Assembly: GCA_903831255.1 (NCBI GenBank)
Contig: CAIKWZ010000071.1
Location: forward strand, 1 to 55,451
DNA from: an uncultured Alphaproteobacteria bacterium
GTDB lineage: Bacteria; Pseudomonadota; Alphaproteobacteria; Caulobacterales; Hyphomonadaceae
Direction: 5' to 3'
DNA: 55,451 bases
Position numbers and translations under genes: made by a program. This document shows, piece after piece, positions 8,274-53,806 of this stretch. The notes beneath the pieces are model-generated. The model saw only the letters and a program-made list of their open reading frames with translations. It was not told where the DNA came from and made no database searches. Position 1 is the first letter of the stretch. Each line of letters starts with the position of its first letter.

Positions 8274-9365
8274 ATGGATTTTTCCCTAAGCGAGGATCAG
8301 CTCTCCTTTCAGTCGTCCGTTCGCGGACTTCTCGAGCGGTCATGTCCTCTGGACGTTGTCAGAGTTGTCGCTGCGGGGGACAGGGACGCCGCTGAACGCG
8401 TCGTTCGCGACCTTGATGCGCTCGGCGTCAGGGGCGTCATGGCTCCGGAAGCTGATGGCGGGCTGGAGCTCGGACTTCTCGATGCCGTCATCATCCAGGA
8501 GATGATCGGACGTCAGTGCGCCCCGGGGGATTTTTCAGGCGCTGCGATCGTCATCGCAGGCTTATCGTCCTTTGGTGGGACATCAGCTGCGCGGGCCTGG
8601 ATGACCAAAGTCGTGTCGGGTGACGTGCGCCCAGGCGTCGCCCTTGCCGAACGGATCGGCGTTCGTGACGGGACGGGTCTGCGCCTTGAAGGAGGCCGTC
8701 TGCACGGGCGCAGCCTTTTTGTAGTGGATGGCGATACGGCCACTCATCTGTTTATCGCCCTGCCTTCAGGCTCCCTGGCGATTGTCGATGCGACGGCGCA
8801 GGGCGTCAGCCGGGTTCCGCTCAGGACGATTGACGCCACCCGGGTCTTTTCCGAGATCCTCTTTGACGGAGTTCCTGCCGAAGTTCTTACAGGAGAGAGC
8901 CTGGCGGGCGCGGCGGTCAATCGGATGACCGCCGTTGCGCGTCTTCTGGTTGCAGCCGACGCACTGGGCGCCATGCAGGTCATGCTGGAGCGCGCTGTGG
9001 CGTACTCTCTGGAGCGCAAGCAGTTCGGGCGAGTGATCGGGTCCTTCCAGGCTGTCAAACATATGTGTGCGGAGATGGCCGCCCGTCTCGAGCCGTTGCG
9101 CGCACTCATCTGGCATGCCGCTCACGCTTTTGACGAGGGGAGTGAGGAGGCCGATCTTCTCATCCTGCTGGCCAAGTCTCATGCTGCTGAGGTGGGCGTG
9201 TTCATCGCCCGCACAGCGACGGAGGTCCATGGGGGCATGGGCTTCACCGATCTTGTGGGCCTTCATTACTGGTTCAAGCGGATCGGCGTGTCGCGTCAGG
9301 TTTTCGGGGCGCCTGAGGCGGTGCGAGGCGAGGCGGCGCGGCTGCAGGGATGGGTCTCGTCCTGA
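8274..9365 (+). CDS. acyl-CoA dehydrogenase, second of a tandem pair
   Basis: A 363-residue acyl-CoA dehydrogenase homologue. The N- and middle domains are reduced: the usual substrate/FAD motif of the middle domain is not recognisable, while the C-terminal helical domain is well kept (YSLERKQFGRVIGSFQAVKH, then ATEVHGGMGFTDLVGLHYWFKR). That asymmetry, together with the neighbour at 7068, resembles the FadE pairs of steroid catabolism in which each subunit supplies part of the FAD site. Alone it may be inactive. The ORF ends about 135 bases before the converging MaoC-like gene. Confidence 0.87.
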   Translation: MDFSLSEDQLSFQSSVRGLLERSCPLDVVRVVAAGDRDAAERVVRDLDALGVRGVMAPEADGGLELGLLDAVIIQEMIGRQCAPGDFSGAAIVIAGLSSFGGTSAARAWMTKVVSGDVRPGVALAERIGVRDGTGLRLEGGRLHGRSLFVVDGDTATHLFIALPSGSLAIVDATAQGVSRVPLRTIDATRVFSEILFDGVPAEVLTGESLAGAAVNRMTAVARLLVAADALGAMQVMLERAVAYSLERKQFGRVIGSFQAVKHMCAEMAARLEPLRALIWHAAHAFDEGSEEADLLILLAKSHAAEVGVFIARTATEVHGGMGFTDLVGLHYWFKRIGVSRQVFGAPEAVRGEAARLQGWVSS

Positions 9366-27490: not shown

Positions 27491-27500
27491 GCGGTTCTTT

Positions 27501-27542
27501 GCGTCAGGCCTGACGCCGGCAGAGCCTGCTGGCTCCGCCGGC
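27501..27542. terminator. 16-nt palindrome plus long hairpin between convergent genes
   Basis: GCGTCAGGCCTGACGC (27501-27516) is a perfect palindrome. It overlaps a second structure, GCCGGC-a-GAGCC-tgct-GGCTC-c-GCCGGC (27515-27542), an 11-bp stem with one mismatch and a tetraloop. It fills the gap between the converging FrnE-like and SRPBCC genes and looks like a bidirectional terminator. Confidence 0.55.
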
Positions 27543-27552
27543 GGGGCCTGTC

Positions 27553-28071
27553 TTACTTCGCTTCGGCGATCGCCTTCATGTTACGAAGAGCCCCTTCGAA
27601 CTGGGTCTTGCGCCTTGCGACGTCCGCATCCTTGGCCGCCTTGTCGGCGAGATTCGAGACGTCATACATCAGCGTGTAGAGAATTTTCGAGGACGTCGCT
27701 GAGACCGGCCGGGCCTCCAGGAAGCCGTGATAGAGGTCGTAGAATTTCCCTTCCTTCGCCGGCTGCGTGTAGCCGTAGGACAGCGGGGTCTGAGCTGTCA
27801 GAACCTCGATCACCGCTCCATTGGCGATCGAGCGCACGGTGCCGATGCCGCCATCGCCGCTGGTGACCGAGCAGGGCACTGTTCTCGGAGGCGGCGCGAT
27901 CCAGGTTCCCAGATCGCAATAGCCTCCCACCTTGGCCCAGACATCGGCGGCCGGCTTGGCGACCTCGATCTCCATCTTGATGGTGACATATTCCGGTTCC
28001 GCCCATGCGGCGCCTGCGCCGAGGAGACATGCCGCCGTGATGACGGCGGCGGTGCGCTTGAGATGAGACAT
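27553..28071 (-). CDS. exported SRPBCC (START-like) family protein
   Basis: 172 residues with a signal peptide (about 1-25, cleavage after AWA). The rest matches the SRPBCC/polyketide-cyclase helix-grip fold: IEVAKPAADVWAKVGGYCDLGTW at the start of the fold and a long C-terminal helix (ADVARRKTQFEGALRNMKAIAE). Such proteins bind hydrophobic ligands in a deep pocket; most are not enzymes. Export to the periplasm is less common for the family. Single gene; ligand unknown. Confidence 0.8.
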   Translation of the reverse strand: MSHLKRTAAVITAACLLGAGAAWAEPEYVTIKMEIEVAKPAADVWAKVGGYCDLGTWIAPPPRTVPCSVTSGDGGIGTVRSIANGAVIEVLTAQTPLSYGYTQPAKEGKFYDLYHGFLEARPVSATSSKILYTLMYDVSNLADKAAKDADVARRKTQFEGALRNMKAIAEAK

Positions 28072-28131
28072 GGTCTTTCCTCCCTTGTCCGCCCTTATGG
28101 CGGGTTGTCCTTATGGCTGTGAGGCCTTCTC

Positions 28132-28158
28132 GAAGGTCCTGCGGTCGCCAGGACCTTC
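28132..28158. repeat. perfect 10-bp inverted repeat upstream of the SRPBCC gene
   Basis: GAAGGTCCTG, seven-base loop, CAGGACCTTC, 60 bases upstream of the SRPBCC start and 106 bases from the tRNA-Gly remnant. No U-tract on either strand. It may be the old terminator of the tRNA transcript, an operator, or a structured leader. Confidence 0.4.
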
Positions 28159-28263
28159 AGCTAGAGGCGATTGCTCCGGGAACGTCAACCGCCGGAGGCG
28201 CGGCGGGCGCAGTCGCCCTCAGCCTGCGGGCAGGCGCTGACGGTCGGAGATCATGAGAGGAGA

Positions 28264-28310
28264 CTGGAGCGGGTCGTCCGAATCGAACCGACGTATTCCG
28301 CTTTGAAGGC
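28264..28310 (-). repeat. tRNA-Gly 3'-half remnant, candidate left attachment site
   Basis: 47 bases matching 33589-33635 at 43 positions, including the CCA end, the acceptor and T-arm and the 3' half of the anticodon arm. The 5' half of a tRNA does not follow. One T-stem pair is broken, and the anticodon bases read TCA rather than TCC, so it is not a working tRNA. Confidence 0.8.
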
Positions 28311-28663
28311 CGGCGTCATTGACTTGGGATCAACAGCTTAGGTTCAAACGGCGGCCCTTTCCGCCCTGCCATTAATCAATGGCATATCGGGCGAGTTCGA
28401 ACGTTTCAAACGGCCTCGAGAGGGCGATTTGGGTCGTTTAATTCCGTCTGGCGGCAAGGGCGACGAGGGCGGTTGTCGTTCGATTGTTGCCTAAGGTCAG
28501 AATACCCCCCGACTCCTGACAGTCAGGGTTCACATTACGAATTCACGTCTTGGGGCCCAAAATGCCGCCTGACCCTTTTGCCGGTCACGGCATTCGCGAA
28601 AACTGTCGTTTGCGAGAGACGCGCGGAACTTTGCTGCGTACCTCTTGAAAGCGTACACGTCAG
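28311..28663. other. gene-free left end of the island
   Basis: No supported gene in these 353 bases. Composition is less GC-rich than the flanks. It holds the double hairpin at 28350-28384 and, further right, GCGTAC direct repeats (28636-28641 and 28651-28656) just upstream of the antitoxin promoter. Confidence 0.5.
28350..28384. repeat. two adjacent perfect hairpins near the island end
   Basis: GGCGG-N6-CCGCC (28350-28365) is followed after one base by TGCCATT-AATC-AATGGCA (28367-28384), a 7-bp stem with a tetraloop. They sit 40-74 bases inside the tRNA remnant. A recombination or protein-binding site, or a terminator pair, are possible readings. Confidence 0.5.
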
Positions 28664-28706
28664 TTGAAATCTTAACTGGCTCTGGTGTATGCTTTGAAGG
28701 CGTACA
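28664..28706 (+). promoter_or_regulatory. promoter and operator of the toxin-antitoxin operon
   Basis: TTGAAA (28664-28669), 18-base spacer, TATGCT (28688-28693) form a housekeeping-type promoter 34 bases before the antitoxin start. The imperfect inverted repeat TGTATGC-N7-GCGTACA (28686-28706) overlaps the -10 box, and further GCGTAC copies lie at 28636 and 28651. That layout fits autorepression by the ribbon-helix-helix antitoxin. Confidence 0.55.
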
Positions 28707-28726
28707 GATTTAAAAGGTGGCCTACG

Positions 28727-29044
28727 ATGCCAAGGCCAGTGAAAGACGACTCGCAACGGATGGCGCTCCGCCCGCGTGCGGCTGACAAGGCGCGCCTGGT
28801 GCGAGCTGCGGCGTTGAAGCAAACCGACCTGACGAAATTCGTCATGCGTGCTGCTCTTGAGGCGGCCGATGAGGTGATTGCGGCGTCTGAACGGGTAGCG
28901 CTGTCGGAGCGCGACACGCAACTCATGATGACGCTTCTGGATGATCCGCCTGAACCCAATGCGCGGCTTCTGTCGGCGGCCAAGGCTTTGCGGCCGCGCG
29001 CCGTTCGTTTGAAGCGGGGTCGGGGAGAGGTTGAACCAGCGTGA
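28727..29044 (+). CDS. DUF1778 (TacA-like) antitoxin
   Basis: 105 residues. A DUF1778 antitoxin with an N-terminal ribbon-helix-helix DNA-binding domain (about 8-50, ADKARLVRAAALKQTDLTKF) and a C-terminal toxin-binding tail containing LSERDTQLMMTLLDDPPEPN, the typical family ending. It should neutralise the GNAT toxin encoded immediately after it and repress its own promoter. ATG 28727 has AAAAGGTGG upstream. Stop codon overlaps the toxin start as GTGA. Confidence 0.9.
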   Translation: MPRPVKDDSQRMALRPRAADKARLVRAAALKQTDLTKFVMRAALEAADEVIAASERVALSERDTQLMMTLLDDPPEPNARLLSAAKALRPRAVRLKRGRGEVEPA

Positions 29045-29574
29045 GCCTTCCTGAGTGGCAGGAGGAGGCGGTCGCAAAGCACCACGACCGAAAGAGCTTC
29101 GATTGCGGCGACGTCGACCTCAACAACTATCTCGCCAAACATGCGCGACAGGCTCACGAGGCGGGCGGGGCGAAAACCTATGTCGCTGTTGCGACGGCAT
29201 CATCCCAAACGGTACTGGGCTATTACACTCTCGCGCCCGGTGCGCTGGCCTATGCGGAGACGCCGGAGACCGTTCGACGCGGGCTGGCGCGCCATGTTGT
29301 GCCAGTGTTCCGGCTCGCGCGGCTCGCTACGCAGCTCGGCTTGCGGGGGCAGGGCCTCGGCGGGCAATTGCTGTTGGCGGCGGGCGAGCGCTGTCTCCTT
29401 GCGGCGCAAAGCGTCGGCGGCGTTGGCTTGCTCATCGACGCTAAGGGCGAACGGGCGGCTGCCTGGTATGAATCCTATGGCGCCATCCGCCTCGAAGACC
29501 GGCCGCTCTCGCTGATACTGCCGTTTGCAACCGTAGCAGCTGCGTTTAAGGCCGCTGAAACAGGCCAGCAGTAG
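29041..29574 (+). CDS. GNAT-family toxin (TacT-like)
   Basis: 177 residues from GTG 29041, coupled to the antitoxin by a 4-base overlap. An acetyltransferase of the TacT/AtaT type, which blocks translation by acetylating the amino group of charged tRNAs. The family start HDRKSFDCGDVDLNNYLAKHA is followed by the acetyl-CoA loop GLRGQGLGGQLL and the segment AAWYESYGA, with Tyr143 close to the catalytic tyrosine of TacT (Tyr140). It appears intact. The island holding it is inserted at a tRNA-Gly gene, and glycyl-tRNA is a known target of several members; that link is speculative. Confidence 0.92.
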   Translation: MSLPEWQEEAVAKHHDRKSFDCGDVDLNNYLAKHARQAHEAGGAKTYVAVATASSQTVLGYYTLAPGALAYAETPETVRRGLARHVVPVFRLARLATQLGLRGQGLGGQLLLAAGERCLLAAQSVGGVGLLIDAKGERAAAWYESYGAIRLEDRPLSLILPFATVAAAFKAAETGQQ

Positions 29575-29703
29575 GAAAGCTGTAGGGGCAAATGTTAGTC
29601 AGATTCCGGCCGGTCCCCTACCAGGTTACGAGTGCACCTTATGGGGGGCGCTGCCATTGATGATATTGCGGAGGACGGTGTCGAACAGCTTCGAGGTCGC
29701 GGG

Positions 29704-30807
29704 CTACGCCAGCCCAAGGAACGTCCGCAGACGTTCAAGTTCTTCGTCGAGCGCTCGCTTGAACCGCGGATCTTGGGGCGGCTTGCCGGACACGTAGCCG
29801 AGCTGGGACTGCAGCTGGTTGTCAGTTACAGCGAGGTTCCCCCAACCAATAACGGCGTCGCGCCACAAAAGCGGCAGGGCATAATATCCGCGTACCCGCT
29901 TGGCCGCCGGTACATAGGCCTCGAAGCGGTAGGCCCAGCCCCATAGTGTTTCGAAGCGGCGGCGGTCCCAGACGATCGGATCGAACGGCGCAAGGAGGCG
30001 CACTTCGCCTTCTGAGACGTCAACGGAGCTCCATCGCCTGGCGCTCGGGTTTTCGTTGGCCGGCCAATACCAACGCGTGCCATCGATTTCGGCGGACTGC
30101 AGTCGCGTTCGCGAACGTTGAATAGCAGCGCGACAATCATTTGCCCATTGAGGGGCGCCGCTGCGGAGCCGGCCCACAAGCTCCGCCAACGATCGCTCAG
30201 GCAACGGCGCATACTTCTTGACGACAACGTCCACGAGCATGTCCATCGCGATTTGCGGGTCCACTGGGGGCGGTGTGGCTTCGCGCGCCGCGTAGAGACG
30301 CGTGCCGCTCGCGCGACCGGCTATTCGTACCAGTCCGCGGTAGTGCATTTGGTCCAGCAGCTGAGTGCTTGCGTTGGTCGGGCCGCCAAACCAATTCCGT
30401 GCTTTTCCATGTTGGAATTGTGCGTCGACGTCGTGTGGGTGCACGACCCCTCGTTCGCGCACAAACGCCAGTACGGCGGCCGCTTTGTCTTCATGAGATT
30501 TTGACCACGTTGTTCGCGGCGTGCGTGGATGCAGGAGCGCATGCGTGTCGCGCGGCAGGAATCCATAGTTGACGAAGAAGTCTTCTTCGATCGCGAGCTT
30601 TGGATAACGAAGCTCAAGGTCGCCAGCACGATAGTTGCGCACACGATGGCGGAGGATCAGATCCTGGGCGCGCGCCGGCGCGCGAATTGGATCGGCCTGG
30701 ACAAAGCCCAGGCGCTCGATCGCACGAGCCAGCGTCACGGGGCCGAACAGTGTTCGCGCTACCGTGTATTTGCGAAGTTCTGCAAGAGTGATCGGATGCC
30801 TGGTCAA
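29704..30807 (-). CDS. YcaQ-type DNA glycosylase (HTH_42 / winged-helix family)
   Basis: 367 residues from a TTG start with GGGAG seven bases upstream. The HTH_42 family includes E. coli YcaQ and Streptomyces AlkZ, glycosylases that unhook interstrand crosslinks and bulky alkyl adducts. Near residue 36, GFVQADPIRAPARAQDLIL contains the Gln-X-Asp motif of the YcaQ branch (AlkZ has Gln-X-Gln). Further family segments are FFVNYGFLPRD and the C-terminal DPIVWDRRRFETLWGWAYRFEAYVPAAKR, which I split here as LLAPFDPIVWDRRRF and YRFEAYVPAAKR. It lies tail-to-tail with the toxin gene in the island. Activity is inferred from the family. Confidence 0.85.
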   Translation of the reverse strand: MTRHPITLAELRKYTVARTLFGPVTLARAIERLGFVQADPIRAPARAQDLILRHRVRNYRAGDLELRYPKLAIEEDFFVNYGFLPRDTHALLHPRTPRTTWSKSHEDKAAAVLAFVRERGVVHPHDVDAQFQHGKARNWFGGPTNASTQLLDQMHYRGLVRIAGRASGTRLYAAREATPPPVDPQIAMDMLVDVVVKKYAPLPERSLAELVGRLRSGAPQWANDCRAAIQRSRTRLQSAEIDGTRWYWPANENPSARRWSSVDVSEGEVRLLAPFDPIVWDRRRFETLWGWAYRFEAYVPAAKRVRGYYALPLLWRDAVIGWGNLAVTDNQLQSQLGYVSGKPPQDPRFKRALDEELERLRTFLGLA

Positions 30808-30943
30808 GATAGTCTCCCACTAATCCTCGCGACCCCTTTTGTCTCCGCTTGGCAGTTTCCGAATGACGCTTTTTGGGCGAAGACCCGCTGGGTCGGCTGG
30901 GGCAGGATGACTGGCGGATCTTGAGCGACCTTGCCGTTATCCG

Positions 30944-30969
30944 CCTCGTCCGGCCATGGTCGGACGAGG
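30944..30969 (-). terminator. 9-bp hairpin after the TonB receptor gene
   Basis: CCTCGTCCG, eight-base loop, CGGACGAGG: a perfect stem 34 bases after the receptor stop codon on the minus strand and upstream of the glycosylase gene. A strong stem without U-tract. Confidence 0.45.
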
Positions 30970-31002
30970 GGGCCAATAGCTGCCGTGATCCGAGGTGTCG
31001 GG

Positions 31003-33216
31003 CTATCGCGTTGCTCGCATTGAAACGCCCCACAGGATCGGCTGGGATCGGAAAGTGTCATACCCGATGAACCCATAACCGGAGAGCGCGTAGTCCTCGT
31101 TCGTCAGATTGCGCGCCCACAGGGAGAGTTCGGTCCGTCTATCCAGCACCAGGCGCGCGGTGGCGTCGACCAGCGTAAGCGGGTCCTGCCTGCGATCGTC
31201 CCGGCCTTCGGCATCGAGATAGTACGCGGTCTGGTGCTTGGCGAAGATTTCCAGCGACGCCGCCATTTCGGCGCCCAGCTTCCATTCCTGCTTGACCCCC
31301 AGCGTCGCCGACAGGCGGGAGGCGAATGGCAGAGGCTTGCCATTGAAAATCGCGGTGTTGGCGCTTGCACCGGTCCGCTGCTCGATCTCGCTGTCGAGGG
31401 CCACGACGCCGCTGGTGATGTTCAGACCCTCCAACGGCCGCCATCTGGCGGAAACATCCAAGCCCGTCACCGTCGCCGCATCGAGATTCGCCAGCGAGTT
31501 GGAAGTGATCGAACCGCCACCCGGCAGCGGAAACGCCACAAATATCCTGGCCTGCGGATGGCTGTAGTCCTGCAAGAACGCTATGGCATCGAAGCTCAGC
31601 GCCTTGTCCAGCGAGCCCTTCAGGCCGACCTCATAGGCGTCTACGGATTCGGCCCCGAACAGACCTTCATCCTGATAGTGGGTGACGTTGTTGGCCACCT
31701 CGCCATTGAAACCGCCGCTCTTGTAGCCCTGACCGAGGGAGGCGTAGGCTAACAGATTGTCGCCGATGCGGTGACGCAGCGCCGCCATGCCTGTGAAGCG
31801 ATCCTCGTCGATGGTGTTGGCGCCCTGCGCGAGGCCCGCGCCCGAGCGGTTGTTCAGCGCACGGACCCCATCGGCATAGATGTGTTTGCCAAATCCTTGG
31901 CCGTCGATGCGCTCGAATGTCTGCCGCCCGCCGAGCGTCAGCGTCGTCCGCGAACCGAGATCAAAATCGACCGTCGCATAGACTGCGCCCATCCGGCGCC
32001 TCTGTTCGATATGTGTCAGCAGCGACACCGCCGGCGCCGTCGAAGCTGGCGTCGGCCCCACGCGTCCCGGTGCGCCTGGGTAGACGCATGTGCCTGCGAG
32101 CGTCACCGGATCGAGCGTTCCGCACCAGATCAGATAGTCCTGCGACAAGTCGTCTTCCGCCAGTGAGACGCCGACAAGCGTATTCCCGCCGTCCCAATCG
32201 ATGCGACCATAGAGCTCCTGGCTCAGTTGCAGATAATCGCGATTGTAGGACAGGTTCGCGATTGCTGTGGGCGTCCCGTCGAAATCAAAACCGTAGCGCT
32301 GCCGAAAACCTTCAGTCGCCGTCAGGGAGGTAATGCGCCAGGCGCCCCAGCGCGTCGTGTATTCCGCCGACAGACCCTGAAAGTCATTGTCGGTGGGGCG
32401 CACGCCATCCGCGCCGACAGATACCTGATGATCGCCCAGCACCAGCCCCGAATTGCGCGGCGCGGGGTTGACGCCGTTGTCAGCCTCTAGATGCCCGCGC
32501 ACGAGAAGTTCGCTCCCTTCGCCGAGATCGAAGGCCAGTGACGCGCGCACGCCATACTCATCGCGCACGTCGCCCGCATCCTTGGGCCCGCCTGCATTCT
32601 CCAGCGTCGCATCCTGCTTCAGGTAGCGCGCCGCGATGCGCCCGCTGACGCCCTCGGCCACCTTGCCGCTTGCCGCAGCCTGCAGATCCCAGCGATTGAA
32701 GCGGCCATACGATGCATCCGCATAGGCTTCGAAATCGTTCGTCGGCCGCTCCGTGATGAAGTTGATCGAGCCGCTCGATGCGTTTCGCCCCTGGACCGTT
32801 CCCTGCGGCCCCTTCAGTACTTCGACACGGGCGAGATCATAAGCCAGCAGACTGGCCTGAACATTGGTTTGCAGGAAGACGCCATCGACGTGCACGGCGG
32901 CTCCGCTCGGCGTCAGCGCCTGGTGATCCACGGCGCCAACGCCGCGGATCTGGAACGTGGCCTGCGAGCCATTCGAGATCGCCACCTGTACGCCCGCGAG
33001 GCGCATCACGATATCTTCTGCGCCATCCACGGCGACAAGCTCTTCCCGTGACAGGACAACGACGCTCTGTGCCAGATCATTCGCCAGGGCGGGCTCTCGT
33101 GTCGCCGTCACGATGACGCGATCGCTCGGAGATGGAAGCTGCGCGAAGGCGGACGGCCCCGCGCACACGGACACCACAATACCCAGACGACAAATTGAGG
33201 CACTCGTCAGCATCAT
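31003..33216 (-). CDS. TonB-dependent outer-membrane receptor
   Basis: 737 residues. A signal peptide (about 1-25, ending AFA) precedes a TonB-box-like segment (DRVIVTATREP), the plug domain with GVQVAISNGSQATFQIRGVG and VEVLKGPQGTVQGRNASSG, and a 22-strand-type barrel ending in LWARNLTNEDYALSGYG and a final beta strand that stops at Arg rather than the usual Phe. Such receptors import siderophores, B12, sugars or other large ligands using TonB energy. No siderophore, cobalamin or sugar genes are nearby, so the ligand is unknown. It is the largest cargo gene of the island, has two adjacent start codons and stands alone. Confidence 0.9.
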   Translation of the reverse strand: MMLTSASICRLGIVVSVCAGPSAFAQLPSPSDRVIVTATREPALANDLAQSVVVLSREELVAVDGAEDIVMRLAGVQVAISNGSQATFQIRGVGAVDHQALTPSGAAVHVDGVFLQTNVQASLLAYDLARVEVLKGPQGTVQGRNASSGSINFITERPTNDFEAYADASYGRFNRWDLQAAASGKVAEGVSGRIAARYLKQDATLENAGGPKDAGDVRDEYGVRASLAFDLGEGSELLVRGHLEADNGVNPAPRNSGLVLGDHQVSVGADGVRPTDNDFQGLSAEYTTRWGAWRITSLTATEGFRQRYGFDFDGTPTAIANLSYNRDYLQLSQELYGRIDWDGGNTLVGVSLAEDDLSQDYLIWCGTLDPVTLAGTCVYPGAPGRVGPTPASTAPAVSLLTHIEQRRRMGAVYATVDFDLGSRTTLTLGGRQTFERIDGQGFGKHIYADGVRALNNRSGAGLAQGANTIDEDRFTGMAALRHRIGDNLLAYASLGQGYKSGGFNGEVANNVTHYQDEGLFGAESVDAYEVGLKGSLDKALSFDAIAFLQDYSHPQARIFVAFPLPGGGSITSNSLANLDAATVTGLDVSARWRPLEGLNITSGVVALDSEIEQRTGASANTAIFNGKPLPFASRLSATLGVKQEWKLGAEMAASLEIFAKHQTAYYLDAEGRDDRRQDPLTLVDATARLVLDRRTELSLWARNLTNEDYALSGYGFIGYDTFRSQPILWGVSMRATR

Positions 33217-33588
33217 CGATAGAAGTACTCCTACAACGAGCCGAACATGCCCGACCGACCACTCCTGAACAGCGCGCCCGGGTGCGTGGAAGTCGCCATT
33301 TCAGCGCAACGACGCGATTCCCGTCGGGCAGTTCAGTCTCCCGATCAACCTCGGTTGACCAGAATTTGCGATCCACCTCACGCGGTTGACGAAACGTCGC
33401 ATCGCGCTCCGGAGGTCCCGCGATGACCAATGACGTCAATTGGGAGATATCCCGCCGTTGAACCGGCAGGGAGCGAACGGCAGCTTTTTGTCAACTTCGG
33501 CATCGGACTTCAGCGTTGAGGGCTTGGGCCCGACGCCGCGGATTTCAAAGGTCTAGCGATGCTGCTGCAGGCTAAGTCTATGAAAAGG
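33217..33588. other. 372-bp gene-free right end of the island
   Basis: No supported gene. It should contain the receptor promoter. The interrupted repeat CCAAT-GACGTCA-ATTGG (33427-33443) lies about 210 bases upstream of the receptor start; I cannot assign it a function. No second integrase gene or fragment is visible. Confidence 0.4.
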
Positions 33589-33589
33589 C

Positions 33590-33663
33590 TGGAGCGGGTA
33601 GTCGGAATCGAACCGACGTATTCAGCTTGGAAGGCTGCTGCACTACCATTGTGCTATACCCGC
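33590..33663 (-). tRNA. tRNA-Gly (anticodon TCC)
   Basis: Reading the minus strand, the 74 nt fold into a complete cloverleaf: acceptor GCGGGTA/TACCCGC, D-stem GCAC/GTGC, anticodon loop CTTCCAA (anticodon at 33629-33631), T-arm GTCGG-TTCGATT-CCGAC, discriminator T and an encoded CCA. One pair at the top of the anticodon stem is unpaired, as in many alphaproteobacterial tRNA-Gly(TCC). It also serves as the right boundary of the island. Confidence 0.97.
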
Positions 33664-33738
33664 GACCGGTTCTGACCAGACCGATAGCCGATCGGGGGGA
33701 GCGGTTACGCCAATTCCGGCGGTCTGTCCACTCCATCC

Positions 33739-33770
33739 GGCGCCGGCTGGCGCAGTTTCTGGCCGGCGCC
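33739..33770 (-). terminator. 9-bp hairpin after the uracil-DNA glycosylase gene
   Basis: GGCGCCGGC, 14-base loop, GCCGGCGCC, a perfect stem 14 bases beyond the stop codon of the minus-strand gene and before the tRNA-Gly gene. No U-tract. Confidence 0.45.
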
Positions 33771-33783
33771 CTCGGGCGCGCTT

Positions 33784-34479
33784 TCAGGATGCCTTCAGCT
33801 CGGCGGCGATCGACCGGAAGACATCATGGAACATGGCCTCGGTCAGCCGGCCTGTATTCGTGTTGTATCGCGAGCAGTGGTAGCTGTCATAGAGGGTGAT
33901 CGAACGACTGCCGGCCGTCAGGGCGTGGCGTCGTCCATGTCCGAAGGGCGCCTGCGCCGGACGGATCTCCAGAGCGCGCAGGGCCGAGTCGTGGGCGATG
34001 CGGCCGAGAGCCAGGATCATCTTCAGCTGGGGCATGGTTTCGATCCGGTTGGTCAGAAACGGGCGGCAGGCATTGATCTCCTGGCCTGTCGGCTTGTTTT
34101 CCGGGGGAACGCATCGAACGGCGTTGGAAATCAGGGCGTCAGGCAGGCGTACCCCGTCATCCATCGACCCTGAATAGACGCCCTCTGAGAGACCAAAGGT
34201 CTTCAGCGTGGCGTAAAGGAGGTCTCCTGCGTAATCGCCCGTAAAGGGGCGACCCGTCCGGTTCGCCCCGTTAAGGCCCGGGGCAAGGCCGAGAATAAGG
34301 AGGCGGCCGCTTTCCGATCCGAAGGAAGGGACCGGAGCATTGAAGCCCTCAGGCATCAGGACCCGGTTCGCGTCCCGATAGGCCGCCAGCCTGGGGCAAA
34401 GCCGACAGTCGACGCCTGGCTCCCCGGAGCGGACGGGGGAGTGCAGGGAGCTCCGGGACGGGGGCATCAGGATCCTCAC
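33784..34479 (-). CDS. family 5 uracil-DNA glycosylase (UdgB type)
   Basis: 231 residues from GTG 34479. An iron-sulfur uracil-DNA glycosylase that removes uracil and some other deaminated bases. Four cysteines at 25, 28, 123 and 138 are spaced as ligands of the 4Fe-4S cluster. Motif A is GLAPGLNGANRTGRPFTGD (64-82), with no catalytic Asp/Asn of families 1 and 4, which is the mark of family 5. Motif B is HCSRYNTNTGRLT (201-213). Alternative start: ATG 34467. Single gene between tRNA-Gly and rpoZ. Confidence 0.9.
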   Translation of the reverse strand: MRILMPPSRSSLHSPVRSGEPGVDCRLCPRLAAYRDANRVLMPEGFNAPVPSFGSESGRLLILGLAPGLNGANRTGRPFTGDYAGDLLYATLKTFGLSEGVYSGSMDDGVRLPDALISNAVRCVPPENKPTGQEINACRPFLTNRIETMPQLKMILALGRIAHDSALRALEIRPAQAPFGHGRRHALTAGSRSITLYDSYHCSRYNTNTGRLTEAMFHDVFRSIAAELKAS

Positions 34480-34663
34480 ACCGGCTCCGAAGGTCTGATC
34501 GGAGGCCGAACCGACGTTCTATGCCTCTGTTTTCCGGTTGTAAAACGACTGAGGCCGCAGGACGTCGTGGCTGGTTATGAGGGCGGTGGGGCGGCCCCCG
34601 GCTCAAAGGCTCGTCCGCGATCGCTGCGCGCCGCCGGGAGGGTCCGAACCGCCTCCGGCAAGC

Positions 34664-52164: not shown

Positions 52165-52238
52165 CGGGACGTGCGTTCGACATGCGGGGCGACGAGATCG
52201 CCCCGGGCAGGCATCAGGCAATCGGAGAGATGGAATGA
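52161..52238 (+). CDS. 25-residue ORF bridging rsmB and guaA
   Basis: A 25-codon frame whose ATGA start overlaps the rsmB stop and whose last codons overlap the guaA start as ATGA (TGA 52236-52238, ATG 52235). Translation gives [20 protein letters not shown] and five further residues. Ribosomes could pass by reinitiation from rsmB through this peptide into guaA. No family resemblance. GGAGAG upstream of the guaA ATG lies inside the small ORF. It may be only a bridge, or a leader peptide that sets guaA expression. Confidence 0.5.
52185..52205 (+). promoter_or_regulatory. perfect 8-bp hairpin in the guaA leader
   Basis: CGGGGCGA, loop CGAGA, TCGCCCCG, ending 30 bases before the guaA start and inside the 25-codon ORF. 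It could be disrupted by ribosomes translating the small ORF, an arrangement that suits translational or attenuation control of guaA. No T-run follows, so it is not an ordinary terminator. Confidence 0.45.
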
Positions 52239-53806
52239 CGAAACCGACCGACGGCCTGCACGAGCGGGTTCTGATCGTTGATTTCGGAAGTCAGGTGACG
52301 CAGCTCATCGCTCGCCGCGTTCGTGAAATCGGCGTTTACTGCGAGGTTCATCCCTACAACCGCGCCGCATCCGTTCTGGAGGGGGGATTTGCGCCGAAGG
52401 CTGTCATTCTTTCGGGCGGTCCGGCGAGCGTGACAACAGGCGCCAGCCCCCGCGCCCCTGATCAGATCTTTTCGCTAGGGGTTCCCGTGCTTGCGATCTG
52501 CTATGGGCAGCAGACGCTTTCGGTTCAGCTTGGCGGGGAGGTTGAGGGCGGTCATGCGCGCGAGTTCGGTCGCGCGGATGTGGAGGTCCTTGCTGACAGT
52601 CCGCTCTTTGAGGGCGTGTGGCGGGTCGGCGAGCGATATCCGGTCTGGATGAGTCACGGCGACCGGGTGACCCGTCTGCCGGAAGGCTTTCAGGTGATCG
52701 GCGTTTCGCCGAACGCCCCGTTTGCGGTGGCTGTGGACGAGCGGCGGCGTTTTTACACGACCATGTTCCATCCTGAGGTGGTCCATACTCCGGACGGGGC
52801 CCGTCTGCTGGAGAATTTCCTCAAGCGGATCGCCGGCCTCCGCGGCGACTGGACGATGGCCGCTTTTCGTTCCGAGGCGGTGGAGCGCATTCGCTCTCAG
52901 GTTGGAGGCGACAGGGTGATCTGCGGCTTATCCGGAGGCGTGGATTCCTCTGTGGCGGCGGTGCTCATCCATGAAGCGATCGGAGAGCAGCTGACGTGCG
53001 TTTTTGTTGATACGGGGCTCATGCGAAAGGGCGAGGCGGAGGAGGTGGTGACCCTGTTCCGCGAGCACTACAATATTCCGCTGGTCCACGTGGATGCGCG
53101 AGGCGAATTTCTCGGCGGCCTCTCTGGAGTGACGGATCCCGAGGCGAAGCGGAAGTTCATCGGGGCGAAGTTCATTGAGATATTCGAGCGCGAGGCGCGT
53201 CGGGTGGGGGATGCGCGGTTCCTCGCTCAGGGAACGCTCTATCCTGACGTCATCGAGAGCGTCTCATTTGACGGAGGGCCCTCTGTCACCATCAAGTCTC
53301 ATCACAATGTGGGAGGTCTTCCCGAACGCATGAATCTCAGGCTCGTTGAGCCTTTGAGAGAGCTCTTCAAGGACGAGGTAAGGGCGTTGGGCCGGGAGCT
53401 TGGTCTTCCGCCGGCCTTCGTCGGACGACATCCCTTCCCAGGTCCGGGTCTCGCCATCCGTATTCCGGGAGAGGTGACTGCGGAACGTGTTGCGATCCTC
53501 CAGAAGGCGGATGCGATCTACCTCGATGAGATACGCAAGGCCGGTCTTTATGACGAGATCTGGCAGGCATTCGCGGTCTTGTTGCCTGTGCGGAGCGTCG
53601 GGGTCATGGGCGATGGGCGCACCTACGATAACGTGCTGGCTCTTCGAGCGGTGACGTCAACGGACGGCATGACGGCTGATTACTATCCTTTTCCGCATGA
53701 CGTCCTCGGTCGGTGCGCGACGCGTATCATCAATGAGGTCAAGGGCGTTAATCGCGTCGTCTATGACATCACATCCAAGCCTCCGGGCACTATCGAGTGG
53801 GAGTAG
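52235..53806 (+). CDS. guaA: GMP synthase (glutamine-hydrolysing)
   Basis: 523 residues. Converts XMP to GMP with ATP and glutamine. The class I amidotransferase domain has Cys89 in AICYGQQ and the His/Glu of MFHPEVVH; the ATP pyrophosphatase domain has the PP-loop [11 protein letters not shown] near residue 230; the C-terminal dimerisation domain ends KPPGTIEWE. Complete in length. It ends the guaB operon. Immediately after its stop codon the sequence becomes AT-rich and a recombinase gene follows, so the 3' end of guaA is the probable insertion site of a mobile element. Confidence 0.97.

Follow-up and report, generated by a model that had tools for sequence, protein, structure and literature searches.

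We analysed a 55,451-nucleotide (nt) stretch of DNA (the window), contig C71 of the draft genome of an uncultured Hyphomonadaceae bacterium (G000; 3.32 Mb, 76 contigs), in which a tRNA-Gly(TCC) gene and a second copy of its 3' half enclose a segment of about 5.3-5.4 kb. ARAGORN calls one tRNA in the window, a tRNA-Gly(TCC) at 33590-33663 on the minus strand with its anticodon at nt 33-35, in agreement with the original prediction of an intact gene at this place. An ungapped comparison found 28264-28310 identical to 33589-33635 at 43 of 47 positions in the same orientation, which bears out the direct repeat that had been claimed; the runner-up place for the 47-nt repeat, in a scan of the entire window on both strands, matched at 26 of 47. 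The repeat consists of nt 29-74 of the tRNA and one base past the CCA, and identity breaks off sharply at either end. It had been described as starting at the encoded CCA, and that start was off by one base. The distal copy lies on the same contig and the same strand, 5.3 kb downstream of the intact gene. No open reading frame (ORF) of 60 amino acids (aa) or more overlaps 28264-28310 and ARAGORN calls no tRNA there, and for 27500-34500 Rfam reported the tRNA and one sub-threshold match on its opposite strand. With the 74-nt tRNA as a query against the G000 draft, 7 matches were obtained at E values up to 10. Three were strong, namely the gene itself, a tRNA-Gly(CCC) on contig C65 (80%) and the distal copy (nt 29-74, 91%), while the other four had E values of 0.06 or more. 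Thus the 47-nt copy is not part of a repeat dispersed in this genome, a possibility that the original prediction had raised against itself.

The intact tRNA gene forms the island-side junction (attL-type) of the segment, and the distal copy, a displaced and decayed 3' half, forms the distal junction (attR-type). Inward from the tRNA there is a tRNA-proximal end (33217-33589, minus strand), followed by genes for a 737-aa TonB-dependent receptor (31003-33216, minus strand) and an AlkZ-like DNA glycosylase (29704-30807, minus strand). Next come, on the plus strand, a GNAT toxin of the TacT type (29041-29574; closest solved chain 6g96_B, E 1.3e-56) and a TacA-like antitoxin (28727-29044; PF08681, E 1e-19), the start of which was picked by eye, the listed ORF starting at 28685. 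The DUF1778-type antitoxin and the GNAT toxin are adjacent and their ORFs overlap by 4 nt, as in TacA/TacT gene pairs. Pfam Acetyltransf_7 matched the GNAT gene below its cut-off only, and neither protein had a match in NCBIfam. Beyond the pair lie an intergenic repeat of about 70 nt (28489-28559, minus strand) and the distal inner end (28311-28488). The chromosomal neighbours are an SRPBCC (Polyketide_cyc2) gene on the distal side (27553-28071, minus strand) and a uracil-DNA glycosylase (UDG) gene on the tRNA side (33784-34479, minus strand).

We compared this locus across 15 genomes of the genus, G000 included. The tRNA-Gly(TCC) and SRPBCC genes were found on one contig and in the expected order in 10 of the 14 relatives. 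We placed the start of SRPBCC by extrapolation of the protein alignment and measured the distance between it and the tRNA end. This is about 156 bp in both G001 and G005, 482 bp in G011, and 2.05-2.9 kb, with an ORF of 540-597 aa, in G003, G004, G007, G008, G010 and G013 (G004 having an additional 231-aa ORF). The same distance is 5.5 kb in G000 and 24.9 kb in G014. In G001 and G005 a single tRNA-Gly(TCC) connects the UDG gene to the SRPBCC gene, which is the empty site that had been predicted, and G011 likewise provides an empty site. In G010 a DsbA-type gene adjoins SRPBCC, as in G000, where a DsbA-type gene follows SRPBCC.

A relic of the tRNA 3' half upstream of SRPBCC was detected by Smith-Waterman alignment in G000 and G014 (0 of 500 shuffles reach the score). 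In the nine island-free relatives that have the expected gene order no convincing relic was found there (p 0.24 to 1 in eight, 0.024 in G003), nor was one found on the SRPBCC contig of G009 (p 0.49). The one-gene insert of six relatives was considered as an older island and rejected, there being no convincing tRNA relic upstream of their SRPBCC genes. Among the relatives whose locus was fetched, only G014 carries the cargo beside tRNA-Gly(TCC). The original prediction would have been contradicted by relatives that all carry the cargo here without the repeat; we found instead that TonB and AlkZ homologues lie elsewhere.

G014 is the closest relative, and it holds a 24.6-kb island between the same two boundaries. 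Inward from the tRNA, 3.78 kb are 96.5% identical between G000 and G014, covering the TonB receptor gene and most of AlkZ; in G014 the AlkZ gene is truncated. The opposite end, made up of the distal tRNA copy and about 250 bp of adjoining island DNA, shows 91% identity, the inner end at 28311-28488 being common to both genomes (about 91%). The middles are different. In G000 the middle is the toxin-antitoxin pair, which is absent at this place in G014. The G014 middle is about 20.7 kb and includes two alpha/beta hydrolases, an oxidoreductase, a TauD dioxygenase, a sulfatase-modifying factor and IS3-type transposases (the last named by eye). Since the same junctions occur in two independent genomes, a chimeric assembly is excluded.

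The first tRNA base of the repeat, nt 29, belongs to the 5' strand of the anticodon stem, and the repeat continues to the tRNA end, which places the insertion in the anticodon-loop class (class A). In the Islander report this anticodon-centred crossover class accounts for 2083 of 3919 islands in tRNA genes (PMC4383910), and another report likens the tRNA anticodon loop and stem to the core sites used by tyrosine recombinases (PMC8371274). Repeats starting at nt 29-31 are also present in three further tRNA-Gly(TCC) insertions, in G090, in G195 and in the IMG/VR locus L168 (IMGVR_UViG_3300037499_000319), and two of these have integrases. The 1.5-kb insert of G090 contains no recognised integrase and is accompanied by a second, identical 3' half that begins at nt 31. 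In G195 the 3' half starts at nt 29, a 419-aa tyrosine integrase is 0.17 kb away and a second PF00589 integrase lies further on; this contig begins inside the element, so that the intact tRNA is off the contig. The L168 element measures 12.9 kb; its two repeats, which begin at nt 31, are identical, and an integrase-like ORF (phmmer) lies 0.33 kb from the tRNA. The G090 insertion (L133, G090:C3, 1664-3303) is itself another minimal insertion at tRNA-Gly(TCC), bounded by the gene and a 3'-half copy.

A pattern for a 3' half lacking its 5' stem matched 2 of 398 genomes of the order; the pattern is blind to decayed copies and missed both G000 and G014, so this count is a lower bound. A scan of IMG/VR gave at least 121 tRNA-Gly pattern matches in at least 120 loci, one of which was read in detail, and among the matches listed four had an ORF within 4 kb that is similar to one of four query integrases. 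One further article (PMC11476347) held nothing of use on tRNA-Gly in the portion searched.

These insertions bear on the idea that the distal copy arose by tandem duplication of tRNA-Gly, decayed and was separated from the intact gene by later gene insertions, with no site-specific recombination at all. tRNA genes do duplicate, and the two copies differ. However, the distal copy ends sharply in the anticodon stem, within 2 nt of the ends in the three other insertions, two of them with integrases. Moreover there is no 5'-half similarity before the distal copy and no tandem tRNA-Gly pair in the genus loci that were fetched. We therefore give a tandem duplicate only a very slim chance. Site-specific integration at the tRNA 3' end, as originally proposed, is supported by the empty sites, the shared boundaries and the comparison insertions.

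The sequences next to the two halves also differ in their resemblances. About 150 bp following the intact tRNA resemble the DNA after tRNA-Gly in G009 (76% over 226 aligned nt including the tRNA). The distal copy and the bases following it resemble a stretch of G003 (83% over 60 nt), in which the tRNA adjoins the ancestral neighbours. This fits a 3' half at the intact tRNA that would be island-borne and a far-end half that would be derived from the host. A related element may occupy the tRNA-Gly site of G009, where the contig (L073, G009:C222) ends early. The tRNA-Gly(TCC) genes of the genus fall into two types that differ by paired D-arm and T-arm changes: those of G000, G014 and G008 are near the type of G090 and G092, of another genus, and the remaining 10 of the 13 genes compared share one type resembling tRNA-Gly(CCC).

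The distal copies of G000 and G014 carry the same three changes relative to the intact gene and to 13 intact tRNA-Gly(TCC) genes. These are a change of the anticodon from TCC to TCA, one change in the anticodon stem and one in the T stem; the G000 copy has one further change. When the flanks were joined in silico to give the excision product, ARAGORN called no tRNA, and the minimum free energy of folding was -21.0 kcal/mol compared with -27.6 kcal/mol for the intact tRNA. In silico, excision thus yields no recognisable tRNA, whereas excision of a mobile element would restore a functional one. The other glycine tRNA found with this query in G000 has the anticodon CCC, which by standard wobble pairing decodes GGG but not GGA. 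We expect that excision would be harmful or lethal to the cell, and the island is probably no longer able to leave without destroying the tRNA.

Neither the G000 island nor the G014 island contains a match to the PF00589 integrase family at E values up to 0.001. A tblastn search with eight integrases for a relic in the islands of G000, G014 and G090 returned one chance-level match only (E 0.072). A recognisable recombinase is thus missing, as the original prediction had stated. That prediction left two options, a remnant or an island mobilised in trans, and the second has some points in its favour. The G000 genome has seven PF00589 matches, six of them over the cut-off; two look like, and presumably are, the housekeeping XerC and XerD, and others are near tRNA-Tyr, tRNA-Ser and tRNA-Leu genes. 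The small G090 insert at the same tRNA also has no recognised integrase, and the microcin H47 island offers a precedent (PMC3191183). However, a resident integrase as the helper was rejected after the L168 integrase, searched against the seven G000 loci, gave just two weak tblastn matches (E 0.015, 25% over 143 aa; and E 0.96). The decayed displaced half and an excision product that is not recognised as a tRNA, in a genome where the other glycine tRNA found is CCC, argue for a remnant over mobilisation in trans. We regard an island that is still mobilisable by an integrase encoded elsewhere as improbable. An integrase of G000 (L080, G000:C57) is near-identical to one in G014 (L130, G014:C1; 98.8% over 254 aa), both near tRNA-Tyr, and probably marks another shared island.

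The identity of G000 and G014 DNA is 76-87% from UDG to the start of a flank gene that we take to be relA from its translation, and 92-99% in the island, with the step at or beside the tRNA. At four-fold degenerate sites identity is 93.9% for AlkZ and 94.6% for TonB compared with 59.7% for UDG and 59.8% for relA. On the SRPBCC side the four-fold values are 81% for SRPBCC, 75% for DsbA, 75% for the next gene and 64% for the one after. Among the 34 flank ORFs retained, the four-fold median is 66.7% (range 54.0-93.8). Eight of 44 ORFs had been dropped from this count as probable shadow frames, their aa identity being below their third-position identity; all eight exceed 90%, and their retention would raise the flank figures (median 72.8 for the 43 ORFs with at least 40 sites). 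Since identity at four-fold sites is about 94% in the island and 60% across the tRNA, we infer an exchange after the lineages split. The locked block probably passed between the G000 and G014 lineages, with homologous recombination as the simplest route, a reading drawn from sequence comparison. The exchange seems to have come after the block had decayed.

Vertical inheritance alone, with island genes under stronger constraint than the flanks, would accommodate the four-fold values of more than 90% that are reached by two flank ORFs as well (8274-9365 and 52235-53806). It is quite improbable, because the excess is seen at synonymous sites, with 94% falling to 60% just past the tRNA, and the TonB protein (96%) is no more conserved than the proteins of its neighbours (86-98%). 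If the same island had entered tRNA-Gly separately in G000 and in G014, once the two species had diverged, the identity break would lie at or beside the tRNA, as expected of site-specific insertion, and the high identity of the cargo would also be explained. However, each such insertion would leave a functional host 3' half at the far end, whereas both distal copies share three decay substitutions; the shared decay argues against two insertions of a fresh island. The identity of about 95% beyond the distal copies towards SRPBCC points the same way. Independent insertions are accordingly very improbable.

The second of those flank ORFs, which we take to be guaA from its translation, is directly followed by a tyrosine integrase gene (PF00589; 53972-55246). 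G000-G014 homology stops at 53802, at the end of the gene at 52235-53806, and a second integrated element seems to begin there.

The genes of the island have relatives in several other places. The AlkZ protein is 88-89% identical to copies elsewhere (not at a tRNA) in G001 and G005; the UDG proteins of these two genomes are 63% identical to that of G000, so the AlkZ gene has probably moved within the genus. TonB receptor homologues (69-79% aa identity) are found at other places in six members of the genus, one of them partial. A search of plasmid and phage records gave matches in 71 and 17 of them, respectively, none over 80% of the query. Among the 8 of 71 plasmid and 8 of 17 phage matches listed, 1-8% of the query was covered; the listed plasmid matches are GNAT/DUF1778 genes and TonB fragments, and the listed phage matches are the stretch of the tRNA gene. 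Among the matches listed, DNA of about 67% identity to the GNAT gene is found on Mesorhizobium and Sphingobium plasmids.

The intergenic repeat of about 70 nt begins GGGCCCCA and is dispersed in the genus, and homology to G014 stops at its inner edge. Eight copies were found at unrelated places in five genomes (one in G014, two each in G011, G009 and G005). Their neighbours include a TetR-type gene and AbiE-like genes (both identified by eye) and, at 0.6 kb, a tRNA-Gly(GCC); two copies on G011 contigs have integrase genes 0.15 and 2 kb away. We considered the repeat as an arm of an attachment site or the footprint of the lost integrase and rejected this, the eight copies with their flanks being in varied places not tied to attachment sites. 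It is possibly a transposon end or a miniature inverted-repeat transposable element.

Together, these data make it very probable that an integrase inserted the island into tRNA-Gly(TCC), that the integrase was lost, that the displaced half decayed and locked the island in, that the middle was later rebuilt, and that the block was exchanged between the lineages. In outline, an island with a tyrosine recombinase would have entered the anticodon-loop region of tRNA-Gly(TCC) once, in the ancestor of the G000 and G014 islands. Its own 3' half would have restored the tRNA and pushed the original half to the far end, now 5.3 kb off beside SRPBCC. The integrase would subsequently have been lost, and decay of the displaced half would have reached the point at which excision no longer regenerates a working tRNA, locking the island in. 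The middle would later have been rebuilt, to the TacA/GNAT pair in G000 and, in G014, to a stretch of about 20.7 kb that contains transposases and catabolic genes. After the split the locked block would have been swapped between lineages, one recombination end being at or beside the tRNA.

Several observations weigh against this account. No integrase or excisionase was found in the island, and the recombinase step is therefore argued from anatomy and by analogy. G034, a member of another genus, also matches the 24 nt that directly follow the intact tRNA (92% over 98 nt, tRNA included); this stretch could therefore be a host trailer, which makes the assignment of the two halves to island and host tentative. 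With 4 of 47 positions different between the halves, the point of the original crossover cannot be located to a single base. The GC content is 62-65% in all 11 genes measured, with GC at third codon positions lowest (66%) for AlkZ and TacA, so that the comparison of GC inside and outside that had been suggested does not mark the island from its surroundings. Four-fold identity falls gradually on the SRPBCC side with no sharp end, and the two flank ORFs above 90% mean that patches of high identity are not restricted to the island. Almost every genome of the genus in this comparison is a draft in at least 20 contigs; G002 and G012 were not informative at the locus, G009 is split over contigs and G006 has a different order.

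A more far-reaching version holds that an essential tRNA gene can by now no longer do without the island: the tRNA-Gly(TCC) of the cell would rely on the island's 3' half, the host half being too decayed for use, and the block could be neither excised nor lost, crossing species solely by homologous recombination anchored in the conserved tRNA. The TacT-like toxin would act as a second lock, directed at the product of the gene in which it resides. Most tested GNAT toxins are specific to Gly-tRNA, acetylating the aminoacyl-tRNA (PMC9177977). For that very reason the coincidence with a tRNA-Gly target site is weak evidence, and the pair is also absent from the G014 island. We consider this version unlikely.

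Our data indicate that the element is a tRNA-integrated genomic island remnant of the anticodon class, of a known kind but in an advanced state. Like the islands in tRNA genes catalogued by Islander (PMC4383910), it lies between an intact tRNA and a downstream 3' fragment in the same orientation and is longer than 2 kb. Gene and fragment are on the same replicon, the fragment reaches the tRNA end and lies outside conserved coding sequences and full tRNAs, and the length is within 2-200 kb. Unlike those islands, it has no integrase gene and its tRNA fragment is decayed; without the integrase that the Islander filter requires, we call it a remnant and not an active island. Scans that require an integrase would reject it, so such remnants may be under-counted. 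Here empty, occupied and rebuilt versions of the site are present within one genus, which makes this a well-resolved case of what follows integrase loss, and the displaced tRNA half is visible mid-decay.

L168 shares the target tRNA-Gly(TCC), with its repeat starting two positions further in, but it is larger, has an integrase beside the tRNA and has identical repeat copies. The microcin H47 island of E. coli is similarly small, its direct repeats are likewise imperfect and it encodes no recombinase; its excision and integration were detected (PMC3191183), whereas here excision is expected to destroy the tRNA. The gene order, overlap and families (PF08681; GNAT like 6g96_B) of the putative toxin-antitoxin pair are like those of TacA/TacT (DUF1778-GNAT) modules. 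The toxin target, however, is putative, and across 105 family genomes the nearest GNAT protein found, encoded by another copy within G000, is 38% identical. The abrupt change in synonymous divergence at the tRNA suggests that homologous recombination can still spread islands of this kind once they are immobile. This is like the High-Pathogenicity Island within E. coli, a tRNA-borne island that moved between lineages with flanking DNA by homologous recombination; that case was based on many strains and a transfer experiment (PMC2606025), and ours is deduced from two genomes of different species.

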